From a virus: 40,240 nt of DNA. Below the pieces are notes generated by a model, which ran no database searches, was not told the DNA's origin, and was given only the letters and a program-made list of their open reading frames with translations. A program made the position numbers and the translations under genes. Shown here in pieces: positions 7,347 to 40,240 of this stretch. The number at the start of each line of letters is the position of its first letter. Within the stretch, counting starts at the first letter, position 1. The DNA is taken from the IMG/VR virus record IMGVR_UViG_3300013093_000009, positions 1-40,240 of that record; one strand, written 5' to 3'.

Positions 7347-10300
7347 CTAGTTACCGTACTTGTTTGGCAGTGAAGCCAAAGCGTGTTGAATAAAATATGC
7401 CTGGGTCTTAAATTGCGGGTCCGCGGCGACTTCTTGGCACCAGTTGTACCACTGGTTCTCAAGGCCCGTGGCGCTGCCGTTTCCGCTAATTATTGCCTGC
7501 ACCTTGGACACAGCCGAGTCGTAATTTTCAAGAAGAAACGCAAACTTTTCCCGGTCGGTTTTGGTCATGATGTTTTCTGTAACCAATGGGTCCTTAACCA
7601 AGGAGCGCATTTCGTTAATAGAGTTGATCTCTGCGTTGTACCGAGATGCACCCTGGAAGTTGGCAAGCCACGTTGGGTTCATCGAGCGACCGTAATTCAA
7701 TGCCTGGTCGTTCAACGCCTTGTATTCCTGGTAGCCAATGTTTGTGCCCGGGGCCATTCCGTTACCACCAAAAGCAGGCTGAGCGGCCAAATAGTTGTAG
7801 TAATAGTCATTGCCTGCGGCCACAAGGATTGCGTCCAAGTATTGCTGTGGGGTATCCTTGGCTCGAAGGTTAAGAGAAACCTCAAGCGTGTAGGCCACAG
7901 GCGAGTACTTGCCGTTGCGGCTAATGGTGTAGGCAAAAGCGTACGGGTATTTGGCAGCAAGTTGCTGGCCTTGCACCGTTGACAGAATTGCCGCACTTGA
8001 CACCGTTTCTGGGTACGGCGTGTAATTGCTGGAGCTGTGGGCAACAAGGTCAAAAATGTTGTTGGGGTATTCAACCGCAAACTTATTAGCCGCTTCGGTA
8101 AAGGGCATGCGCGCCGACAGCGCCTGAAATTCTGGGCTCTTTGAGAACTGTTCCTGAATACTTAAAGCCGCAGGGGAAGCAAACGCCAATACGCCCTTGA
8201 CAAGCATCATCATGACAGCTGCACCGCGAGCGTGGTCCAAGAACGTTTGGAAGTTCTGAGGATTGTTGAAGTAGTCAGAAACATACAAGTCAGCTTGTGC
8301 ACGAAGGAACGCAATCTTTTCGTTGGGGGTCCATGGTCTGCCGGTGTTGGGGTTTGTCTGCTCCAACGCTTTTTGGTAGTGCTTCCATGCCAAGTCATAT
8401 TGCTGCGAGTACAGGTTGTCCAACGCATTGTTAAGAACCAAGTTTTCAGTGCTTCGCATAGCAGACGTGTTTAGGTCAGTAATGCCCGCAGCGTTTGCCA
8501 GCGCGACCGAAGCGTCCAAAAGGTTGCGGCCAATGGTGCTTGGAAAGAAGTCACTGTACAAAGACGAGTTGTTTGAGACTGGACCAAGGATTGCCGCCAA
8601 AACTTTTGTGGCCAAAACGCCTGAGCTGGTTGCTCCGCTAAACATCTTTTCGGCAATCTTCAACGGCATTGTGACTAGCGGGCCCCACGATGGGCGGAAC
8701 AAACCAAGGGCACCAGCAGCGCCGCTTTCTGATCCGGTGGGCACAACCGATGCAATTGAACCCGGGTCAATGGAAAGCCCAAAGCCAAGGTGGCCAAATG
8801 CGCCGTTTGTAAAGCTGCCGACGTTGCCGCCAATTACACCAGCGTTGCCCAAGAACGTAGATCCTGGGACAGCAATACTTGGGTTATTGCCGCCAGCCGA
8901 AGCATTGCTAATGTAATTGGTGACACCAAGGCAAAGTTTCAAGTATCGCTCAAACGCGCCTGGGTCATTGCGAAGCACGCGGAAAGCACGACGCCATGCC
9001 TGGTTCTGGGCAAAGTAGAACGGCGCAAGCACGCGCATGTTTACTTCCCACAAGGTCTTGTCTTGTGGGTTGTGAACGTATTTGTGCATGTTAATAAACG
9101 CGTCACGGTCTGCAATCATGTGAGCCGTTGGTTCGTCAATCAAGTTGCGTTCAATAAGCGGGCGCAAACGCTCCATCTGCAAATGCTGTTCAAGCAAGAA
9201 GATTGGTTCGCGAACCATCTTGTTTACAATTGGCCCAAGGACTGCGTCGTGTCCTTTTTCGGCTACACGAGTAATAAGGTCGGACATCGAACCTTCAACA
9301 AGGCCGCTGTGGCCGCCGATCGAAGGGATGTCTTCAGGGGCAAGATTGCCCATCTTTCGGACATCTTCGCGGAAGTCTTCAAGGCCCTTAAGCTTGTCTG
9401 GGTTTGCCGCCTGGGTTACAAGTGCTGGGTGGAAATAGTGGTCAACGTATTGCAACGTGCCATTGTTGTCCTCAAAGTAACCGCTACCAGAAACGCTGGC
9501 AATAGCGTTTTCGGCAATGACGGCAGCCCACTCTTCGTGCGCGTTGCTGCGAGCAAACTTGCTTGTTGGCGGGATGCGGCCCGTGTCGCGCTGGAAACGG
9601 GAAACCTCTTCTGGCGGCAATGCCTCGATGGTTTCAAGAGCCTTCTTTTCCATTGCTGCCCGCAACGCGTCAACTTCAGTTGGCCCTATGTACTTAACGC
9701 CTTGGCGAATAATTTCTTCGCGAGTAAACCCAAATTCATCTTCTGGGCTGGTAATTGCACCGTGAACAACTGCTTGCTGAAGGCCATAATTGTACAGCCA
9801 TTCTTCCATTTCTTTTGAAACAGGAGCAAGCAACGGGTCGTTGGCAATACGAGCAATCTGCATGCGCAAGTCTGACTCGTAATTAGGGGCGCCAGGCATT
9901 GACAATGCAACGCCATTGCGTCCGTGCTTGGTTGACGGAACCCATTCGCCATTGTCGTTTTTTTCAAGAAGGATGCCAGACATTGTCTGCTCAACGGTCT
10001 TTTCATCAAAAACATCGTTCTTGGAACTGTGAACGCCACCGGGCAAGTGTCCATCGTGTCGCATGATAGTGCCGACAAAGTCGTCAAGCATGCGGTTGCG
10101 CTTTGCCTGATCCATGCCAAGAATCAAATTCTTTTGCATGCCTGTAAGGACACCGGCAACAACGTCGCGAATCAGCTTGCCTTCGTACGAATCGCGAACG
10201 TAAGAATTTAATTCTTCCACGCTCATCTTTTGAGGGTCGAGTCCCTGTTTGGCCAAACGGGCAACAACTTCGTCTACCTTTTCACGGAACAAACGAGCGC

Positions 10301-13300
10301 CATACGCTTCATGCTTGGCGATCGAGGCCATGACTTTTGCATCAAAAGATTGCCAGCCGCCAAAACGAAGACTGTTCAACATGGCTTCTGAGGCGCCTAC
10401 GCGCAGGGCCCAGCCACCAGAAAACAAAGCCATTGGCACAAAAGTGCGGCTAAGGAATCGATTGAGGGCGTCAGCCGTGTATTGCCAACCCATGATGTAC
10501 GGGCTGCGCTTGCTGTACAAACGAGCAAGCTCTGTCTGCAAATTGGTTTCCGGTTTTTCGGCAAGAATTTCTTGGAAATTTTTACGGTCAATGTTGGCCG
10601 AACGAATTCTCAAAGGAAGGTCTTCGGAATTGCCTAGGTAGCGGCTTTCCATAAAATTGTCAAAGACATTGTCCAGCAGTTCTGAAGAAAGCTTGTTTTT
10701 CATGCCGCTCAAAACGGAAGCAATAACAGAATGACCAAAATTTATCATTAAGTTTTCTTTGCCCGCTTCGGAAACAATTGGCGACAAAAGGTCCATTGTT
10801 CGTACCGCCAAAGATTCGGCAAAAAATTCGTCAACGCCGTGAAGCCAATAGTTTCGCCCATACGCGCTCATGGTGTAACCGGACAAGCGCGTAAAATCAA
10901 TTGTCTTTGGATCAATCGGGTTGGTTCCGTTTACGTCCAAAATGTGATTGATGTAATCCATTTCCTCGCCATGAGAATGTACCCATCCAAGGGGAACGTT
11001 ATCTTCTGTGTCTTTGTTCATGTAATCCCAAAGCGGGTGTTCCTGGAAAAACTTCTCTCGTGCGCGGTCAAAATCGTTTTCCATTTGCGCAACGTATTCT
11101 TCGGGAAGGTACGTGGAGAGGTGGTGGAACAATTCATGATATACACTGAAATCAAAATTTAACGGGGCTTCAAGTGCGGCGCTGTAAATGTTTAATATTT
11201 TTTGACCAAACATGTACGACGCAAATGCGTCTGGATTGTTGCTACGAACCATAGCAATGACACCCGCAAAAAATTTTGGTCCGATTCGGTTTACAAAATC
11301 AAGAAGTTCTTTTTCGTAATTGTCTGTTTTTTCGGCAAAGAATTTTTCAATAGCGGCCATTTCTTCAGGCGACGACGACTTAAATGTTTCCCGAAGTTTT
11401 TCAAGATCTGCTTTTTTTACAAGATCTTTATGCGTCTCAACAAGGTCTTTAATAAGCCGTTCGCCTTCTGGCGACGTGTCTTGTCGAGCGCGAATAAAAC
11501 TGTCAATTTTTGGAGGCGTGAAAATAAAATCCCGCTTCATTCCTTTGGGCATGTACCCCTTACGAAGCACTTCGCTCAAAGACCCAACATTCCATCGAGC
11601 TTCTTTAAGGTCTTCGGCAAGCCCAGCTAATTCACGCAAACTATAAACCGGAGATGCAAGAGGGCTTTGCATTGAATTTATAAATTGGTTCGTTGCCGAG
11701 ATTTTTCCACGAACCTTTTCAAGCTCGTCCATCAAAAATTGTGGCGACGAAACGTTCAGGTCAAATCCAGAATGGGCGGTAATAACTCTGCTTGAAAAAA
11801 TGCGCGTGTTGTTGAACGCAGCAATTCGGTCTTCAATTTCGCGCTTTTGCTGAAACAAGAAACGCAGCTTTGCTTCAAAAACATTAGCCGCGTGAACAAA
11901 ATGCTCAACTTCGGAAGGCTCGGGCATTGATTCGCTCGCCCCGAATTCGTACATTGGGCTAAGGCCTCTTTTAAGAATTTTTGAAAGTTCGGCTTCGGCT
12001 TCTTCGTAGCCGTCAATAAACTTACCCTTTTTAAGCGGCGGCTCCGTTGTCCACTTTTCAATGTCTTCCCGGTTGTGATCAATGATCATATTTTCGGGTT
12101 CGCCTAATTTACGGGCCCCACCTTCAGACATGGTAATCGCAGATGCATCTTTTTCCCCGGCAATGGCGTGCAACGCTTGAAGCAAGGCTGCACGGGCTTC
12201 TTTGTTCTTTGCCCCAAGGTTGTGGATTGTAAACGACCCGTCTCTTTCGGCAACATAACTAAGAACACCAACCATGCCTTCGATTTCGTCACGGGCAACA
12301 ACAATGTTTGAAGGCAAGCGGCCAAACTGCCGTTGAGCATTAAACCGCTCAAGGGCGCGGGCCATTTGATCCAGGGTTTCGCTTGTGCCGTTAACAACCG
12401 TTCCTTGCATGATTTTTTTAAATTCAGCAGCAAAGTGTTCATTAACAATTTCATGAAGTAAATAAGCGTGGGCAACGTCCGCTGGCGTATCGTTAACGTA
12501 AGCGTTTTTTCCCTGAAGCTTGTCCAGCCATGTTGGGTCATCGGCCAAACGTTCTTTTACATATTCGCGAAATTTTTCAGCGACTTCTTTGGCGCTGCCA
12601 TCTGGGCCAACCTTAAACGGATTGGCCCATTTTGACCCTTCACCAACAAACACAGAGTCTTTAGGAATAGCAAGACCGGGCTTAGTTACATAACCGGCTT
12701 TAAACCCAAGGCCTATTCCATAACCTTTTTCTTTATTGCGAATTGATTCATCAATCAAATGTTTAATAACGTCACCATGGCAAGCCAACGGCGAGCAGTT
12801 GCAGGAAATGTTTTTGCCCTTAAGCGGGTCCAGCCAATCCGGTTCTTCAGCCAAACGCTTTTTTGCGTACTCATAAAACTTTTCAATAACTTCTTCACGG
12901 GTTCCGTCCGGGCCAATCTTAAATGGATTGCCCCATGGCGTTCCTCGCCCAACATATATGGCGTCTTCCGGAGCGTCCTTTTTGTTAAAAACGCCCTTAA
13001 CCGAAATTGCTTCTTTGAACTTTTGACCCATTGTTTTGGGTGAATCGCCGCTTGGGTATTGTGCCCGCTCTTCTGGCGTTAAGGCTTTTTGAAATTCGGA
13101 ACGAATATCAGTAAGCAACTGGCCAAGTTTGTTTTGCCCAGGGGTGCCAGCGCACTTGCCACAGGAACAATCGCCCCACGTATTGTCGTGCCAGGTGTTT
13201 ACCTCAACAAGTTTTGCGTCACCAGTTTGCAACAACAAATCGCGCATGCCCGGTTCGCTAAACTTTTGGCGCACCAAGTTTTTCATTACGTCTTCGCGTA

Positions 13301-16300
13301 TTGAATTCCAATCTTCGCGCAATGGGTTTTTGCGGCCAAGCCTACGTGCAGCATTTGGGTGATTGGCGTTGCGAATTTGTTCGCGCAAGTCTTTGTCGGT
13401 TGTTTTGGCTGCTTGAAATGCGTGCTCTACCGTTGGGTATGTCTTGCCTTCAAACACAACGGGCGACTCATGGAAGTTGGAAAGGAATCTAAATTCGCCC
13501 TTAAAACCGTTTTCTTCTAATTCAATTTGTTTTAGGGTAAGTTCGCGTTTATAATTTTCGGAAGCCTCGCGCAAACGCGTAGCTTGCTGTTTGGTTTCTT
13601 CAACAAAATCGTCATGCTTTTCGGCCGCAACGGGATCGCTAATCTCGGGCTCCGAAGAATAATGGTCAACTTCTCCATTGAAATTTTCTGAATCAAGAAT
13701 TTGCTGTTTTAATTCTTCGGGGTAATCGGTAAAGTCGTACCGATCTTCGGCTTTGACGTTTGCGTAAATATGACGTTCTTTGATGTATGGCTTAGTTGCG
13801 TTTTCAACAATTCCGTCGCGCGAAACACGCGCATACTCCGCCAAACGAAGCTTTTGTTCCAAGCTCAAAAGCCGTGGTTCAATTTCTTTACCTGCCAGCG
13901 TGGTGTACAAAACGCCCGAGATGCGACGCATCTCTTTGGCCAAACCACGAAGTTCTGCGGCACGTGGAATGCGCAGTTCGCCAAGGTGGGTAGAACCAAT
14001 ACCAGCGAATCCTTCAAGGCCAGTCTTGGAGTTGCCCACGCGTGAAAGGACGCGGCCCTCCTTACCGGCTACATACAAGCCGCGATCGCCACCGCCGTCA
14101 AGGCCGGTCAGCTTCATAACTTCTTCCCAGATTTTGTTACCCATGGTGTGGGTCAAAATGCCAAGTTCGCCCTTTTCAAGACCAGCAACGGCGCGACGCA
14201 TGGTGGCGTAATACATTGCCTGGCGGTATGCATTGATGTATTCCTGCGGCCCTTCGGCGTGAAGCAACAAGTCGCCAACAGCCTTAACGGCGTCTTCGTG
14301 CATAAGGGATGAACGCAAAAGGTCCATGATTGCTGGAATGGCGTTAACACTGCCTGGGCGAATAATTTTGTTTTCGATCTTGCCGGTCAGCTCATCAATG
14401 TACGATGAGTCGCGGGTAAAACGCGTGGCCAGCCAACGAAAGAATGCAGCGGTGCCACGAATGCTTTCGTCAGGCAAAGCAAACAACAAAGCGCTGTTGG
14501 GCTTAATGTCAACGCCTGTTTCTTCGCGAATGACTTTCCATACGGACTGAATAAAAGCACCGTCGGAATTAAGCAGATTACCCAGAATGTGAAACCGGCG
14601 TCCAAGGTCGCCCTTTAGTTCTGCCTTGAAAACTTCGTACATGCTCATGGTGGGCATCATGCCATTTACAATGCTGCTGCCTTCAGCTATGTCACGGAAA
14701 ACCGCAAGGACCCCCTCTTCCGTGTTTGCTTCGCCCAGTCGCTTAATAAGCGTTCCAGCCTTAACGCTTTTGTCGGCAGAATCTTGAAACGTGTTGCGGA
14801 ATGTATCCAAGATTTCCGATGCGCTGTGACTGGCAATGTAGTGAATTGCATTGCGCACACGTGCGTATTGCTGGTACGCAAGGTCAACGTCGTCCGCGTT
14901 ACGAATGCCAAGTCCGCTAAACCAAGCACCCAGCTTGCCAGTAAAACCAGCAAACGATCGTGAAGTGTGCAAAACTTTGCCGTACGCGCCCAATGGGTCG
15001 GTACCAAGCCATTTGGTGTAAAAATCGGTCAAACCGGACACCGGAGCGAAGAAAGGGTTGCCCTTGTCGATGCCAAAGTACTGGGCCAACATTTGGCCAT
15101 CAGTGCCAATTATTTTGCCATTTGCGTCATAGGCATTTCCGTCACGTGTCTTATTCCAAAGATCAATCAACGGCTGGTCATTGCTGTTAAGAACATTTTC
15201 TTGATTCACCAAATACATGGCGTTTAAACGAACGCTGGACGTGGCCTTGCCTGCCAATCGAGCGGTTTTCATTAAATAACCCAAAGGGCGGAATGCTGCC
15301 TGCGAAGCAAGGTCCGCCAACTTGTATGCAGTGCCTCGGTCGGTGCCTGCAAACTTGCCCGATTGCAATTCGCGTTCGGCGCCAATCTTAAGGCGCTTTA
15401 AAATTGCCTGCGTGCTGCGTTGTTCTGCGGCTTTAATGGCAGCTTGGGTTTCTTCGTCTAGCGTCTTCCCCGCAGCTTTTGCTGCATTACCCATTGCAAC
15501 CAATCGGCTGTCTTCCGCCATTTGTATTGACGCTTGAAGCGCTTCGGCATTTACCGCGGCAACAGATGCGTCGGTTGACGCGCCATCGGTTGCAAGCCCC
15601 GCAAGGATGGATGGAAGCATGTAGGAAATTGCATAATTCCAACCACGCTGAGCAGCCAACGACTCGGTAAATGCCATTGTGTGCGACATCAGTTGGTATG
15701 CGTTTTGCTGGCTCCACGGATCGATCAGGCGAGTTACGCTAAGCGCAACGTTGTTTGCGGTGTTGTAAGCATCGCCAAGGCCTACAAGTGGATTCGCTTG
15801 AAAACCGTTTGGCCCAAAAAAACCAATAGTGGCAATTTCGTCAGTGGTTAACATTCCTCGCAAAGCAATGTTTTTTCCCCAATCGGCAAGGCCCACAAAG
15901 CCTTGGCCAACCCCACTTACTTTGTCCATAATGTTGTGGCCTATTGACCCCCAGAATCCATACTGGGCTTCATCGGCAGCAGTTTGCTGCACGCTGTTAT
16001 TTAAAACGTTGTATCCGTCTTTAACAACGTTTGTTGCGGCGTCCCACAAACCTGACGGGGCACCTTGCAAAAAATTGCTTGCGCCTCTCCATGCATTTGA
16101 CCACATGCCCGAAACGTCATTTGTGAAGTGGCCCCAACCGCCATCGTTGTTTGCATACCCGTGTACGTATCGACCGATCTGGTTATACGCAGTCAAGTAC
16201 TTAACGGCATTTGAAATCTGGGTAGGGCTTGCATTGTCCATGCGAGCAAGGCTTGCAATTGTTGAAGGGTTCTGGGCAATCAATGGATTGATTGAAGCAA

Positions 16301-16448
16301 TGCGGGCAAGGCCGTGTTGTTGCGTTGGGCTTAGTGCATTCATGGCGTCGGAGTCAATATTCTCCTGCGCCAAAGCAATTGCCTTTTGGCCAATCGGGCT
16401 TGTTGTTGGCGTGTCTTGCTCTAATGGGATTCCATTGATTGAGGGCAT
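7347..16448 (-). CDS. Giant polyvalent virion protein, 3033 aa (NADAR, DUF4326 x2, GNAT-like, metallopeptidase)
   Basis: This gene takes 23% of the genome and lies among virion genes; TAGGAG precedes its ATG. Residues 1-870 and ~1980-3033 are helical with hydrophobic Gly-rich patches, as in ejected internal proteins. In between come: a NADAR domain (~975-1120: FLSNF, TVEHAFQAAK, WGDCSCGKC, NKLGQLL); a DUF4326 domain (~1160-1231: YVGRGTPWGNPF, SCNCSPLACHGD); a second copy (~1258-1330) that has lost all those cysteines; a possible GNAT-like stretch (~1375-1450); and a zincin motif HELFHH at 1771-1776 with a downstream DEFFAES near 1870 supplying the likely third ligand. NADAR enzymes are known to remove ADP-ribose from nucleic acid, so delivery with the genome to counter ADP-ribosylating defence is plausible inference. 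Confidence 0.85.
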   Translation of the reverse strand: MPSINGIPLEQDTPTTSPIGQKAIALAQENIDSDAMNALSPTQQHGLARIASINPLIAQNPSTIASLARMDNASPTQISNAVKYLTAYNQIGRYVHGYANNDGGWGHFTNDVSGMWSNAWRGASNFLQGAPSGLWDAATNVVKDGYNVLNNSVQQTAADEAQYGFWGSIGHNIMDKVSGVGQGFVGLADWGKNIALRGMLTTDEIATIGFFGPNGFQANPLVGLGDAYNTANNVALSVTRLIDPWSQQNAYQLMSHTMAFTESLAAQRGWNYAISYMLPSILAGLATDGASTDASVAAVNAEALQASIQMAEDSRLVAMGNAAKAAGKTLDEETQAAIKAAEQRSTQAILKRLKIGAERELQSGKFAGTDRGTAYKLADLASQAAFRPLGYLMKTARLAGKATSSVRLNAMYLVNQENVLNSNDQPLIDLWNKTRDGNAYDANGKIIGTDGQMLAQYFGIDKGNPFFAPVSGLTDFYTKWLGTDPLGAYGKVLHTSRSFAGFTGKLGAWFSGLGIRNADDVDLAYQQYARVRNAIHYIASHSASEILDTFRNTFQDSADKSVKAGTLIKRLGEANTEEGVLAVFRDIAEGSSIVNGMMPTMSMYEVFKAELKGDLGRRFHILGNLLNSDGAFIQSVWKVIREETGVDIKPNSALLFALPDESIRGTAAFFRWLATRFTRDSSYIDELTGKIENKIIRPGSVNAIPAIMDLLRSSLMHEDAVKAVGDLLLHAEGPQEYINAYRQAMYYATMRRAVAGLEKGELGILTHTMGNKIWEEVMKLTGLDGGGDRGLYVAGKEGRVLSRVGNSKTGLEGFAGIGSTHLGELRIPRAAELRGLAKEMRRISGVLYTTLAGKEIEPRLLSLEQKLRLAEYARVSRDGIVENATKPYIKERHIYANVKAEDRYDFTDYPEELKQQILDSENFNGEVDHYSSEPEISDPVAAEKHDDFVEETKQQATRLREASENYKRELTLKQIELEENGFKGEFRFLSNFHESPVVFEGKTYPTVEHAFQAAKTTDKDLREQIRNANHPNAARRLGRKNPLREDWNSIREDVMKNLVRQKFSEPGMRDLLLQTGDAKLVEVNTWHDNTWGDCSCGKCAGTPGQNKLGQLLTDIRSEFQKALTPEERAQYPSGDSPKTMGQKFKEAISVKGVFNKKDAPEDAIYVGRGTPWGNPFKIGPDGTREEVIEKFYEYAKKRLAEEPDWLDPLKGKNISCNCSPLACHGDVIKHLIDESIRNKEKGYGIGLGFKAGYVTKPGLAIPKDSVFVGEGSKWANPFKVGPDGSAKEVAEKFREYVKERLADDPTWLDKLQGKNAYVNDTPADVAHAYLLHEIVNEHFAAEFKKIMQGTVVNGTSETLDQMARALERFNAQRQFGRLPSNIVVARDEIEGMVGVLSYVAERDGSFTIHNLGAKNKEARAALLQALHAIAGEKDASAITMSEGGARKLGEPENMIIDHNREDIEKWTTEPPLKKGKFIDGYEEAEAELSKILKRGLSPMYEFGASESMPEPSEVEHFVHAANVFEAKLRFLFQQKREIEDRIAAFNNTRIFSSRVITAHSGFDLNVSSPQFLMDELEKVRGKISATNQFINSMQSPLASPVYSLRELAGLAEDLKEARWNVGSLSEVLRKGYMPKGMKRDFIFTPPKIDSFIRARQDTSPEGERLIKDLVETHKDLVKKADLEKLRETFKSSSPEEMAAIEKFFAEKTDNYEKELLDFVNRIGPKFFAGVIAMVRSNNPDAFASYMFGQKILNIYSAALEAPLNFDFSVYHELFHHLSTYLPEEYVAQMENDFDRAREKFFQEHPLWDYMNKDTEDNVPLGWVHSHGEEMDYINHILDVNGTNPIDPKTIDFTRLSGYTMSAYGRNYWLHGVDEFFAESLAVRTMDLLSPIVSEAGKENLMINFGHSVIASVLSGMKNKLSSELLDNVFDNFMESRYLGNSEDLPLRIRSANIDRKNFQEILAEKPETNLQTELARLYSKRSPYIMGWQYTADALNRFLSRTFVPMALFSGGWALRVGASEAMLNSLRFGGWQSFDAKVMASIAKHEAYGARLFREKVDEVVARLAKQGLDPQKMSVEELNSYVRDSYEGKLIRDVVAGVLTGMQKNLILGMDQAKRNRMLDDFVGTIMRHDGHLPGGVHSSKNDVFDEKTVEQTMSGILLEKNDNGEWVPSTKHGRNGVALSMPGAPNYESDLRMQIARIANDPLLAPVSKEMEEWLYNYGLQQAVVHGAITSPEDEFGFTREEIIRQGVKYIGPTEVDALRAAMEKKALETIEALPPEEVSRFQRDTGRIPPTSKFARSNAHEEWAAVIAENAIASVSGSGYFEDNNGTLQYVDHYFHPALVTQAANPDKLKGLEDFREDVRKMGNLAPEDIPSIGGHSGLVEGSMSDLITRVAEKGHDAVLGPIVNKMVREPIFLLEQHLQMERLRPLIERNLIDEPTAHMIADRDAFINMHKYVHNPQDKTLWEVNMRVLAPFYFAQNQAWRRAFRVLRNDPGAFERYLKLCLGVTNYISNASAGGNNPSIAVPGSTFLGNAGVIGGNVGSFTNGAFGHLGFGLSIDPGSIASVVPTGSESGAAGALGLFRPSWGPLVTMPLKIAEKMFSGATSSGVLATKVLAAILGPVSNNSSLYSDFFPSTIGRNLLDASVALANAAGITDLNTSAMRSTENLVLNNALDNLYSQQYDLAWKHYQKALEQTNPNTGRPWTPNEKIAFLRAQADLYVSDYFNNPQNFQTFLDHARGAAVMMMLVKGVLAFASPAALSIQEQFSKSPEFQALSARMPFTEAANKFAVEYPNNIFDLVAHSSSNYTPYPETVSSAAILSTVQGQQLAAKYPYAFAYTISRNGKYSPVAYTLEVSLNLRAKDTPQQYLDAILVAAGNDYYYNYLAAQPAFGGNGMAPGTNIGYQEYKALNDQALNYGRSMNPTWLANFQGASRYNAEINSINEMRSLVKDPLVTENIMTKTDREKFAFLLENYDSAVSKVQAIISGNGSATGLENQWYNWCQEVAADPQFKTQAYFIQHALASLPNKYGN

Positions 16449-21262: not shown

Positions 21263-21300
21263 CACAAAAATCCCCACCAGTTACGGTGGGGATTTTTGTG
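21263..21300. terminator. Strong bidirectional terminator
   Basis: A perfect 16-bp stem (CACAAAAATCCCCACC with its complement) around the six-base loop AGTTAC, with T-runs on both strands. It insulates the virion operon, whose promoter directly abuts it, from upstream transcription. Confidence 0.9.
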
Positions 21301-23060: not shown

Positions 23061-23090
23061 ACGTTCGCCTCGGCCGTTTGCTAAGCCCCA

Positions 23091-23110
23091 CACGTTCGCT
23101 AGCGAACGTG
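23091..23110. promoter_or_regulatory. Perfect 20-bp palindrome, possible operator
   Basis: CACGTTCGCTAGCGAACGTG is exactly self-complementary, lying 70 bases before the first plus-strand gene. Such a site could bind a dimeric regulator or form a cruciform. No matching regulator gene was identified. Confidence 0.5.
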
Positions 23111-23143
23111 AGTGGCAAAGCAAACGCCGTCCTCCTGTCCCAA

Positions 23144-23166: not shown

Positions 23167-23181
23167 GGAAAGAGGATGAGT

Positions 23182-23592
23182 ATGGGAAAGTTTATAACGA
23201 TTCTGGTTTGTGGGAGTCGCACGTTCAAGGACGAAGCCTTCATGCGGAACAAGTTGAGCAATGTAATTGCCGACCTCGGCGTTGAGGCAACCGACGTGAA
23301 GTTGATCACGGGTGGCGCTGCAGGTGCCGACACGATCGCTGAAAAAATCGGCCGTGGGTGGAAGTGGGAAGTGAGCGTGTTCAAAGCCGACTGGACAGCC
23401 GAACCCAAGCGTGCTGGGTACATCAGAAACCAGCGCATGCTTGACGAAGGCAAGCCGAACCTCGTGCTGGCATTTTTCGGGCCCGCTGAAGACGACTCCC
23501 GAGGCACTTCCATGATGGTTGACATCGCCCGCAAGGCTGGGGTGCCCGGCTGGTCGTACCGTCCGCACATCACGCCTGACCCGATTCCCTAG
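23182..23592 (+). CDS. DUF2493 / YspA-like SLOG-fold protein
   Basis: This 136-residue protein has the typical layout of the family: ILVCGSRTF near the N-terminus, a LITGGAAGADTIAEK nucleotide-binding-like turn, a KADW..KRAGYIRNQRM helix, and a final LAFFGP..GTSMMVDIARKAG segment. SLOG proteins bind nucleotides or nucleotide-derived ligands; this subgroup is frequent in phages without a settled function. I chose the second ATG because AAGAGG stands six bases before it and directly abuts the first ATG at 23176. It heads the plus-strand island with the amidoligase pair. Confidence 0.85.
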   Translation: MGKFITILVCGSRTFKDEAFMRNKLSNVIADLGVEATDVKLITGGAAGADTIAEKIGRGWKWEVSVFKADWTAEPKRAGYIRNQRMLDEGKPNLVLAFFGPAEDDSRGTSMMVDIARKAGVPGWSYRPHITPDPIP

Positions 23593-24247: not shown

Positions 24248-24285
24248 ACCCTACCGAGAGGCTTTTTCAAGCCTCTCGGTAGGGT
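24248..24285 (+). promoter_or_regulatory. 17-bp perfect hairpin in the leader of the amidoligase gene
   Basis: ACCCTACCGAGAGGCTT pairs perfectly with its complement around the loop TTTC. No T-run follows, so it is not a standard terminator. It sits between the 22-residue frame and the amidoligase start at 24383, where it could attenuate, stabilise or be processed in the mRNA. Confidence 0.7.
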
Positions 24286-24382: not shown

Positions 24383-25597
24383 ATGCCTGAAGGCTACGAG
24401 CGTGAACTCGTAAACTCACAAGCGCCCAGTGACGTCATCACTGAATTCGCCACCATCGACGGAGAAACCATGGAGTTCGATTCGGACACCATGACCCGTT
24501 GCGAGCGAACCACCTGCGACAACGCGTGGCTCAACGATTCATATGACTATATGAATGTCTTTACGTTGGGCGGCGAACAGCAGTGGTGCGAAGACTGCGC
24601 CAACCTGCGATCATGGGTTTGTGACTCATGCTCCAACTGGTTCGACTCGTACTACGAAAGTTCCACCTGCGTTGACGACGAATCCAACGTCTGCTCTGAA
24701 TGTGACGACAACACGTGGTACTGCGACAACTGCGAAACCAATCACTGGGATAACCACACTTGCGAGCGCGTAGAACAAGAGTTGATGTCCTACAACTTCA
24801 AGCCACGTCCAATTCACAAGTTCGCCAGCAATGAGATCTGGAATGGAGCCCAAGGGTACCCCACTCCCACTTACGGCATCGAACTTGAGTCGGAAAACGT
24901 AACACACCAGTTGAACGAAGCAATCGCCGCGTTCCGCACGCACTACACGATGGACGACTTCTACCTCAAGTCGGACGGCTCGCTGTCCTACGGCATGGAG
25001 ATTGTCAGCCACCCTCGGTCGCTTGCGTCGTGGCGGGAAATTGCTCCCGAACTGGCCGTAGCGCTCAAGGAATTGAGCGGTCTCGGTCAGCGCGCTTGGT
25101 CGCAAACTCGTGCTGGTTTGCACATCCACGTTGGACGTAAGAACTTCACCACCAGCCACGCGGCTCGTTTCGTGATGTTGTTTGCGCGCAACGCAGAAGA
25201 CTGGATCCGTCTCGCCAACCGCAAGACCTCGTACGCGTCGTTCAGCGGAATCGAAGGGGCTGCCGTCATGAAGGTCAAAAACCCAACGTGGGCTGCTCAC
25301 TCCGACGCCGTCAACACTGGCGCCAACGGTGGAACAACGATCGAAATTCGTATCTTCCGTCCATCGCTGTCAGTCGGCCGCGTAATCGGTTCAATTGAGT
25401 TGGTCGATGCAGCAATTGCGTACACGCGCAACATGACCGCATACGATGCCATCCGCGGGGCTCTGGCCTACGACGAGTTCAAGAAGTACGTCATGTCGTG
25501 CGACAACTGGCCACTGGCCAAGAACATCATGCGTGGCTTGCGCTTCAACATGGAAATTCTCCCGCCCGACAATCGTGGAGACCGCTCATGTGCGTGA
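24383..25597 (+). CDS. Putative amidoligase with N-terminal cysteine-rich zinc modules
   Basis: This 404-residue protein starts at ATG 24383, preceded by GAGAAAGGG. A longer frame from GTG 24296 lacks a ribosome site. Residues 40-127 hold a dozen cysteines, mostly in CxxC pairs (69/72, 80/83, 104/107, 114/117), which look like stacked zinc ribbons. From ~164 the amidoligase-family pattern appears: YGIELESE (164-171), KSDGSLSYGMEIVSHP (196-211) and RAGLHIHVG (243-251). This family is related to glutamine-synthetase-fold COOH-NH2 ligases that use ATP to form amide bonds. It overlaps the downstream amidotransferase gene by ten bases, suggesting a joint reaction. The substrate is unknown. Confidence 0.8.
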   Translation: MPEGYERELVNSQAPSDVITEFATIDGETMEFDSDTMTRCERTTCDNAWLNDSYDYMNVFTLGGEQQWCEDCANLRSWVCDSCSNWFDSYYESSTCVDDESNVCSECDDNTWYCDNCETNHWDNHTCERVEQELMSYNFKPRPIHKFASNEIWNGAQGYPTPTYGIELESENVTHQLNEAIAAFRTHYTMDDFYLKSDGSLSYGMEIVSHPRSLASWREIAPELAVALKELSGLGQRAWSQTRAGLHIHVGRKNFTTSHAARFVMLFARNAEDWIRLANRKTSYASFSGIEGAAVMKVKNPTWAAHSDAVNTGANGGTTIEIRIFRPSLSVGRVIGSIELVDAAIAYTRNMTAYDAIRGALAYDEFKKYVMSCDNWPLAKNIMRGLRFNMEILPPDNRGDRSCA

Positions 25598-26493
25598 TGT
25601 GCGTAGGAACGACCGCCAATGAACGGCCGACACGCGCTAACCTCGTCGTTAGTTGCATCAACAACCCAGACGGCTTCGGCTGGGGAATCGTGTACGACGC
25701 ACAAGTCGAAGGAACACCAACCCGTCGACTCATGGCAAGCCACTCGATGACGTCCGAAAGCGCCATCGATTCGTACTTCGCGGCACTCGACCAGTTGGGC
25801 GAAGCAGTTGTGGGACACCTGTTCCACGCTCGCATCGCCACACGCGGTGGGGTTCACCTGAAAGGCTGTCACCCATTCTGGGTACCAGAAGGTACGCGTG
25901 AGTACGACACCAGTGCGTTGCTTGCACACAACGGAATGCTTGGCTTGAGCATCCCCAAGAACGACCAGCGGGTTGACTCGCAGGTCTTTGCGGAGGATGT
26001 GCTGCCAATGTTCGGTGGCGTCGAATCGCTGAACAAGCCGTACGTGTGGGACATCCTCAACGGTTACGTTGAGGGCGAACGCTCCAAGGTGGTAATTCTC
26101 AACACCATCTTCGAAGAGTCACCTGTCATCATCTTGGGCGAAAGCCTCGGATCGTGGGACAAGAACACCGGGCTCTGGTGGTCTAACACCTCATGGTGCA
26201 GCACTCCTTCGTATCGCACGCCAGCAAACGTGACCTACGGGTCGCGAATGCCAGCACGCGAGAGCACTTGGTCAGACTACGACATGTTTGAGTCAAAGTC
26301 AACCATGACCGAAGAAGAGTACGAAGAGTTGTTTGGCGGAATGGCATGCCTTGACACAACCTGCCCCGGCTGGGTTCTCCCAGAAGACGGACAGTTGTGC
26401 TTGGAGTGCGGCGTCTGCCAAATGTGCCTCGACACGTGGGATGAGTGTATTTGCGAAGACATTCGCGAATCACTGCCCACGGAAAAGCCATAA
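25588..26493 (+). CDS. Class II (Ntn-type) glutamine amidotransferase with cysteine-rich tail
   Basis: The start at 25588 gives MCVMCVGT, putting the catalytic Cys at position 2 after Met removal; upstream ATGs would bury it. Family signatures follow in order: NPDGFGWG (26-33), HARIATRGG (80-88), CHPF (94-97) and HNG (114-116). These correspond to glutamine binding and the oxyanion hole in YafJ-like GAT-II domains. Residues ~260-292 carry about eight cysteines (CLDTTC, CLECGVCQMC, CIC), a probable zinc module echoing the partner's. It would hydrolyse glutamine and supply ammonia, presumably to the amidoligase. There is no linked synthase domain. Confidence 0.85.
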   Translation: MCVMCVGTTANERPTRANLVVSCINNPDGFGWGIVYDAQVEGTPTRRLMASHSMTSESAIDSYFAALDQLGEAVVGHLFHARIATRGGVHLKGCHPFWVPEGTREYDTSALLAHNGMLGLSIPKNDQRVDSQVFAEDVLPMFGGVESLNKPYVWDILNGYVEGERSKVVILNTIFEESPVIILGESLGSWDKNTGLWWSNTSWCSTPSYRTPANVTYGSRMPARESTWSDYDMFESKSTMTEEEYEELFGGMACLDTTCPGWVLPEDGQLCLECGVCQMCLDTWDECICEDIRESLPTEKP

Positions 26494-26705: not shown

Positions 26706-26708
26706 ATA

Positions 26709-26753
26709 AATTAGGGTGGGAGTAGTCGAAAGACTGCTCTCACCCTAATTTTG
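26709..26753. terminator. Terminator ending the plus-strand island
   Basis: AATTAGGGTGGGAGTAGTC and its near-complement form a ~19-bp stem around a GAAA loop, followed by TTGT; the minus strand also gives a T-rich exit. Confidence 0.85.
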
Positions 26754-39736: not shown

Positions 39737-40240
39737 TACGCCACCGCCACACAACGCCACTTAGATGTGGCACCGTTGTAGATAAAGCCAATGGTAAGCG
39801 GAAGCGTTGTTGAACCGTTGGACGAAGTCGGCACGGAAACAGTCGAGTTTTCTGTGTTGTTGAAAGACAACGTCACGGAAGAGGCGGAGTAGTCATAGAA
39901 GCGAACGATTGATTGCATGCCATCAACAGCACTTGTGGTCGACATGGTAATCGTTACAGACAAAGCGGCGTTGTTCGTTACCTTGGTTGAGGTGTACGAT
40001 GATGGCGTGACAGTGGCCGCCTGCGAAGAAACAGTTACCGAGCCAACGCTGGGGGCCAGCACGTTTGACGTGACGCTGGTGGCCGTAGCAACACCAAGAG
40101 TAGGCGTGGTGAGCGTGGGGCTGGTGGCGAACACTGACGCGCCGCTTCCTGTGATGCCGTTGAAGGGGCCGACGAGGGTGTACCAGATGCCGTTGAAGTA
40201 TTGCAGAACGTAGTCGGTGTAGAGGTAAGGGAGGCTGAAC
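39736..40240 (-). CDS. Collagen-like tail fibre, C-terminal part
   Basis: This is the continuation of the fibre that starts at 1745; bases 40130-40240 duplicate 1-111. The frame matches exactly across the join (GASVFATSP spans it). The final ~130 residues are beta-rich with repeated short Thr/Ser/Val strands (GVATATSVTSNVLAPSVGSV; IVRFYDYSASSVTLSFNN) and end in FIYNGATSKWRCVAVA, a typical fibre C-terminal pattern. It is the last part to be translated and probably carries trimerisation or receptor-contact surface. Confidence 0.85.
   Translation of the reverse strand, partial: FSLPYLYTDYVLQYFNGIWYTLVGPFNGITGSGASVFATSPTLTTPTLGVATATSVTSNVLAPSVGSVTVSSQAATVTPSSYTSTKVTNNAALSVTITMSTTSAVDGMQSIVRFYDYSASSVTLSFNNTENSTVSVPTSSNGSTTLPLTIGFIYNGATSKWRCVAVA
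40130..40240. repeat. Terminal direct repeat, copy 2
   Basis: Identical to bases 1-111, marking the point where the circular sequence was opened. Confidence 0.95.

Follow-up and report, generated by a model that had tools for sequence, protein, structure and literature searches.

We identified a compact pair of overlapping phage genes, encoding an amidoligase of the GCS/GS fold and a class II glutamine amidotransferase (GAT), that behaves as an obligate unit with near-absolute linkage. The reading that we prefer, and to which we give a probability of roughly 45%, is that the two products form one obligate two-subunit amidotransferase borne by mobile elements, in which ammonia from the GAT would be fixed by the amidoligase on a carboxylate. 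New here are the presence of Cys modules on both proteins of such a compact two-gene unit, the near-obligate linkage and the spread of the pair to accessory loci of Nocardia and Firmicutes.

The pair is located in the IMG/VR virus record IMGVR_UViG_3300013093_000009, whose entire stretch of 40,240 bases was analysed and is called the window below. Because a 111-base direct repeat occupies both ends (positions 1-111 and 40130-40240), the window probably represents a complete phage genome that is either circular or terminally redundant. It encodes two WhiB-type proteins, which suggests an actinobacterial host.

Gene layout

Both genes begin with ATG; the amidoligase gene ends with TGA at positions 25595-25597. 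The gene boundaries and the ten-base overlap (Table 1) are the same as those given by an earlier sequence-only reading of this DNA. As read from the sequence, AAAGGG precedes the amidoligase ATG, and GTGGAG lies about 8 nt 5' of the GAT start, inside the amidoligase gene. A ten-base overlap was found in seven of the 225 distinct viral pairs measured, a count in which the close relatives of the window were scored as 1-base overlaps from the nearer, second Met-Cys. Within this set, 63 pairs overlap, 104 are separated by 0-20 nt and 58 by 21-60 nt, with no larger spacing. Ntn hydrolases need an N-terminal nucleophile, so fusion behind the amidoligase would disable the GAT; overlap or spacing of at most 20 nt (167/225 pairs) is therefore a natural alternative to fusion.

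Table 1. Features of the amidoligase and GAT genes in window coordinates.
Feature	Position	Strand	Basis or remark
Amidoligase (GCS/GS-fold COOH-NH2 ligase), 404 aa	24383..25597	+	PF12224, PHROG 22302, AlphaFold model compared with YbdK
Amidoligase N-terminal Cys-rich module, residues 40-127	24500..24763	+	each Cys conserved in 90% or more of 49 rows; model confidence moderate
GxExE motif (G165, E167, E169)	24875..24889	+	invariant in 49 rows; present in distant members too
D198-G-S200 ... E206 motif	24974..25000	+	D198, S200 and E206 invariant, G199 at least 90% (49 rows)
GxHxH...R motif (G245, H247, H249, R252)	25115..25138	+	invariant in 49 rows
TxExR motif (T319, E321, R323)	25337..25351	+	invariant in 49 rows
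Ten bases shared by the amidoligase stop and the GAT start (ATGTGCGTGA)	25588..25597	+	sequence
Class II GAT, Ntn-hydrolase fold, 301 aa	25588..26493	+	PF13230 below cut-off; model compared with GlmS and EgtC
Predicted nucleophile Cys2 (N-terminal once Met is removed)	25591..25593	+	MC start invariant in 48 rows
Other glutaminase active-site residues (R82, T85, N115, G116, D130)	25831..25977	+	invariant in 48 rows
Predicted disordered linker, GAT residues 210-238	26215..26301	+	pLDDT below 50
GAT C-terminal 8-Cys tail (C254, C259, C271, C274, C277, C280, C287, C289)	26347..26454	+	pLDDT block means 86-92

Catalytic domains

Taken singly, the match of the window amidoligase to Amidoligase_2 (PF12224) is borderline, at 22.1 bits with the ATG start and 21.6 bits with a longer GTG start against a cut-off of 22; 49 of the 54 amidoligase family members match this profile at E <= 0.001. 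The GAT scores 21.6-21.8 bits with GATase_4 (PF13230), below the cut-off of 23, which is a detection threshold and not a defining property; membership in class II rests on fold and residues. With this profile, E is 0.05 or lower for all 48 GAT family members, the best value being 4.9e-9. Beside these borderline scores, the PHROG matches (5e-20 for the amidoligase, 5e-18 for the GAT) and the alignments with relatives leave little doubt. Predicted structures agree with both assignments, which are those of the sequence-only reading.

The AlphaFold model of the amidoligase has a mean pLDDT of 83.6. Structure searches of both proteins took in the catalytic domains, and amidoligase residues 158-391 superpose on YbdK (PDB 1r8g) with Z 12.2 over 214 residues (rmsd 3.8); YbdK, glutamine synthetases and plant glutamate-cysteine ligase are tied at Z 11.8-12.2, and Dop/PafA are among the Foldseek matches. 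The conserved positions in the alignment of the window protein with 48 relatives (49 rows) include the ExE, HxH and ExR motifs, which we take to be marks of the GCS/GS-fold amidoligase family. Fold and motifs place the ORF in this family, and ATP-dependent amide-bond formation is its predicted activity.

For the GAT model (pLDDT 86.4), residues 2-204 match the GlmS glutaminase domain (Z 14.4 and 14.3, the latter for PDB 1xff) and EgtC (PDB 4zfk, Z 13.7), which we regard as a tie. Its R-T...HNG block aligns with amidophosphoribosyltransferase, and we presume glutamine-site roles for C2, R82, N115, G116 and D130. In the alignment with 47 relatives (48 rows), every recognised catalytic residue is present in the window protein, for which glutaminase activity is predicted.

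Purifying selection acts on both genes. In a comparison of 68 independent related pairs, taken from 217 sequences of the family, dN/dS was 0.17 for the catalytic domain of the amidoligase, 0.12 for that of the GAT and 0.23 for the Cys module. Between the window and a near-identical phage (L003), the ratio was 1.47 for the amidoligase and 1.0 for the GAT, against 0-0.31 for 14 other genes, and seven of the fourteen amidoligase changes fall within residues 87-138 of the Cys module. An arms race was rejected as a general explanation, as this excess is absent from the family pairs.

Cysteine-rich modules

The amidoligase module contains about eleven conserved cysteines (C40, C45, C69, C72, C80, C83, C104, C107, C114, C117 and C127), and all eight cysteines of the GAT tail are 100% conserved in the 73 complete GATs of the first scan. 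The two modules that the sequence-only reading noticed are thus real and not chance. Its description of them as matching holds as far as both are Cys-rich. The strict tail pattern is followed by 208 of the 219 complete GATs that make up the enlarged set. The 11 others comprise seven with Asp in place of the penultimate Cys (L374, L389, L391, L393, L460, L467 and L483), two with altered spacing (L109 and L028) and two truncated ORFs (L456 and L360).

Profile comparisons make the amidoligase module weakly LIM-like or double-zinc-ribbon-like in some relatives. Among 54 amidoligases, Pfam gave LIM in two and DZR in one, the window protein not being among the listed matches; the PDB profile match of the module to a LIM protein has E 0.0023, and C2H2 fingers score alike. 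Assignment of the GAT tail to a zinc family was rejected, as a Pfam search of 48 GATs gave sporadic weak matches, the best being Zf_2nd_IFT121 in one of them. Residues of the amidoligase module change about twice as fast as those of its catalytic domain (pN 0.129 versus 0.057, higher in 59/68 pairs). Because the cysteines stay constant and the intervening residues vary at this pace, both modules are most simply read as structural or docking modules, which would bind metal.

The two modules are not always found together: MEP402 and podovirus MW202733 combine a Cys-bearing amidoligase with a tailless GAT, the pattern used detects no tail in the Firmicute GATs, and neither module is present in the PhiCh1 pair.

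Iron-sulphur clusters in place of zinc, serving oxygen or redox sensing as in the precedent of Bacillus PurF, would suit the CxxCxxCxxC stretch of the tail, which resembles cluster ligands, and a phage with two proteins of the WhiB family, which carries such clusters; we consider this very unlikely given the seven GATs with Asp for the penultimate Cys, a replacement that occurs at zinc LIM sites, and the LIM and double-zinc-ribbon matches of some amidoligases.

We found no description of the Cys modules of this pair in the literature searched, and Iyer 2009 and Mageeney 2012 may contain one. Part of the literature that mentions amidoligase, phage and zinc was examined for zinc and amidoligase and contained no link between the two.

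Linkage of the two genes in viruses

Each viral scan covered the best 80 matches. In the first, seeded with the amidoligase, 77 of the 80 viral loci have the GAT immediately downstream; in the remaining three the contig stops at the amidoligase end of the locus. The scan seeded with the GAT placed the amidoligase directly upstream in 76 of 77 new loci, the remaining locus beginning at the GAT. Three further scans brought the set to at least 238 distinct viral amidoligases, with 228 paired, nine at contig edges and one disrupted. Among the matches listed, 228 of the 229 evaluable distinct viral amidoligases therefore have a GAT directly downstream of them; because each scan gave its best 80 matches and these come mostly from related phages, the 228 paired loci are not 228 independent events. 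The sole exception (L387, 2446-4023) is a single ORF that matches both proteins but lacks the upstream frame, the end of the amidoligase and the start of the GAT. We read it as a locus that is disrupted or was misassembled, and its fused frame was for this reason rejected as proof of contact. Independent occurrence of the two genes in related phages, the observation that would have told against the partnership suggested by the sequence-only reading, was thus not seen. The relatedness of the phages shows in shared gene families: of 79 viral loci, 59 encode a WhiB-like family and 52 a terminase-like one.

In GenBank phages the amidoligase matched 23 records, of which 19 are Mycobacterium phages that also match the GAT. 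In MEP402, MW202733 and MT839723 the GAT adjoins the amidoligase. Phage AR1086-1, outside the close subfamily, has a related amidoligase with neither a Cys module nor an adjacent GAT. The order of amidoligase followed by GAT is common to Mycobacterium phage Marvin, Methylophilales phage MEP402, podovirus MW202733, phiEco32 and the PaP3-type cassettes. This near-obligate linkage supports the idea, put forward by the sequence-only reading, of a dedicated two-subunit enzyme, though not as proof of contact or chemistry.

Bacterial loci and tandem pairs in Nocardia

A scan of GTDB contigs listed 79 loci among its matches, mostly from Nocardia and other actinobacteria and from Ruminococcus and other Clostridia. 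A GAT was recognised by profile within 1.5 kb in 61 of these, and a divergent class II GAT adjoins the amidoligase in five more. Nine loci are at a contig edge, three (L185, L202 and L204; 3/70 evaluable) have no recognisable GAT beside the amidoligase, and one (L215, 1674-3842) is a single ORF that matches both profiles in one frame and keeps the internal Met-Cys. The latter would bury the Ntn nucleophile, so it may reflect a lost stop or read-through, and it was rejected as a natural fusion proving contact.

In the genus Nocardia, to which the genome of L184 (G001) belongs, the amidoligase is present in 39 of 118 genomes, usually in tandem copies spaced by about 2 kb, and is accordingly accessory. 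Gene trees were built from 58 pairs, of which 47 are actinobacterial, and the distances in the two trees show a correlation of r = 0.95. For the tandem paralogues of Nocardia, the nearest neighbour is the copy at the same position in 40/40 cases in both gene trees, a comparison made on two-copy loci, with the three-copy locus L184 and single-pair loci set aside. The tandem pairs have therefore co-duplicated without re-pairing, and partner fidelity is kept. Tandem pairs occur on the Nocardia contigs L174-L246, with three in L184; several have a DprA-like SLOG gene and a DUF4192 gene less than 10 kb away.

Of 49 non-actinobacterial loci, 17 encode a member of a tyrosine integrase family and 12 a member of a resolvase family (one member of each was named by Pfam), which suggests that these loci are on integrative elements.

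Proposed chemistry and alternative readings

In the two-subunit amidotransferase that we favour, the GAT subunit would hydrolyse glutamine through its N-terminal Cys, and the amidoligase subunit would activate a carboxylate with ATP and join it to the ammonia from the GAT, leaving an amide on the acceptor. Tight linkage and matching trees are also explicable by linkage alone. To our knowledge, ammonia-donating class II GATs are fused to their synthetase, and the characterised stand-alone ones (EgtC and Dug3) hydrolyse gamma-glutamyl bonds. The tie of EgtC with GlmS in fold and the amidoligases without an adjoining GAT (AR1086-1 and the three bacterial loci) likewise count against the amidotransferase. 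So do the gamma-glutamyl cyclotransferases that adjoin other amidoligases in published accounts (PMC3485107; PMC5513430), as these neighbours cannot donate ammonia.

The main rival is a writer and eraser pair, in which the amidoligase would act on an amine or peptide to form a gamma-glutamyl-type bond, which the GAT would remove as an EgtC-like gamma-glutamyl amidohydrolase, a relation like that of EgtA and EgtC, or in its logic of PafA and Dop. Its ligase and hydrolase chemistry fits almost as well as the amidotransferase, the active-site residues being compatible with both; as a whole we hold this reading to be possible, if somewhat unlikely. Besides the tie with EgtC, it draws on the tied fold matches of the amidoligase domain to glutamine synthetase, YbdK and plant glutamate-cysteine ligase, on the Dop/PafA matches, on the cyclotransferase neighbours mentioned above (also in PMC11318856) and on the cassette GAT being read as a degradation enzyme (PMC5498523). 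However, strict one-to-one linkage and tandem partner fidelity suit a complex better than a link through a soluble product, and a phmmer search of 248 loci found no gamma-glutamyl cyclotransferase, ATP-grasp or second cassette-type ligase except in L011, the source of several of the queries.

A further proposal names the acceptor and is compatible with either chemistry: the pair would be a stripped-down phiEco32/LUZ24 cassette that amidates or re-links the peptide stem of the host wall, blocking superinfection or tuning lysis. The shared gene order with the phiEco32 and PaP3-type cassettes points in this direction, as do the name peptidoglycan modification cassette or module given to the larger phage cassette (PMC5498523; PMC11945000) and the cell-wall idea repeated for the OM43 phage pair (PMC10580990). 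We nevertheless judge it improbable, as the cell-wall role is a prediction in the available portions of these three sources, and the cassette-type amidoligases compared lack Cys modules and match weakly (phiEco32 E 7.5e-6; StenR_269 E 3.1e-8) or, for the PaP3 type, not at all.

Reversible amide-tagging of a host macromolecule would require the amidoligase to write a gamma-glutamyl-type amide, the GAT to erase it and the Cys modules to select the target, with the Nocardia copies serving two targets. We think this doubtful; if true, it would make the pair a self-contained two-gene metal-module system of phages and integrative elements.

Relation to known systems

Genes 105-106 of Marvin and their counterparts in its relatives resemble the window pair in order, in the Cys-bearing N-terminus of the amidoligase and in the 8-Cys GAT tail; each of the 19 Mycobacterium phage records that one window protein matched was matched by the other as well. 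They differ in sharing 26-30% protein identity with the window and in having a gap of 79 bp in place of the overlap; the Marvin amidoligase carries the annotation of a protein with a glutamine amidotransferase domain. The Methylophilales (OM43) phages MEP401 and MEP402 share both the order and the ten-base overlap, but their GAT lacks the Cys tail and the N-terminus of their amidoligase is extended by a long stretch that contains fewer Cys. The cassette of phiEco32/LUZ24-like phages likewise has an amidoligase directly followed by a class II GAT, whereas it adds a COOH-NH2 ligase, an ATP-grasp protein and a gamma-glutamyl cyclotransferase, its amidoligase lacks the Cys module and its GAT is much longer. 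At the sequence level, none of the three added enzymes was found among the Pfam-scanned window proteins.

EgtA and EgtC of ergothioneine synthesis are a GCS-superfamily ligase and a stand-alone hydrolase of the class II GAT fold. The likeness to EgtC is one of fold, and that to EgtA is drawn by description; our literature search found no paper treating an amidoligase together with EgtC. YbdK, a carboxylate-amine ligase, and the GlmS glutaminase domain are among the best structural relatives of the catalytic domains, and the phage Cys modules fall outside the ranges aligned to them.

As the sequence-only reading had said, the pair itself is not new: an amidoligase-GATase pair is annotated in OM43 phages in a paper that also cites a suggested role in Marvin (PMC10580990). 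LUZ24-like phages are listed with an amidoligase, a GAT and an ATP-grasp protein (PMC3890496), and a role in nitrogen metabolism has been proposed for such genes in a deep-sea phage (PMC10945688). Phage amidoligase and GAT genes are common, and the available parts of the reports cited here assign them by annotation to auxiliary metabolism or wall modification, with no direct biochemistry. With its invariant active sites, Cys modules and near-obligate linkage, the compact pair offers the simplest form for expression and assay, and tandem pairs in Nocardia provide natural partner-swap tests. Its acceptor, once found, would inform the larger phage cassette too.

Candidate acceptors and genome context

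The sequence-only reading had offered three nearby gene products as substrates, the DUF2493/SLOG protein, the basic membrane protein and the 22-residue peptide, and none is conserved with the pair. In phmmer searches of the 248 loci, SLOG homologues were confined to the phage's own or near-identical records, L136 and the single contig of L017/L106. The basic membrane protein was restricted to near-identical records and L024/L096, and the peptide to near-identical phages. Together with an 84-aa ORF and the downstream membrane protein, these were rejected as not travelling with the pair. The acceptor is thus probably not encoded beside the pair and is probably a host molecule. Our guess, by analogy with the proposal for the larger phage cassette, would be a host acceptor such as the carboxylates of cell-wall stem peptides.

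Searches of Rfam and PADLOC returned no match, and no sigma-70-like promoter site was found, with 1.6 expected by chance. The window encodes a 3033-aa polyprotein at 7347-16448 on the minus strand, in which a NADAR domain (E 5.7e-25) is accompanied by two DUF4326 stretches (E 2.7e-31), and the same phage carries a YAcAr SLOG gene at 23176-23592. NADAR and DUF4326 have been tied to NAD-derived signals (PMC7824862). About 100 bases 5' of the amidoligase start, at 24248-24285, lies a perfect 17-nt inverted repeat with a 4-nt loop and no T run; similar hairpins are located at 21263-21300, 23075-23126 and 26708-26751.
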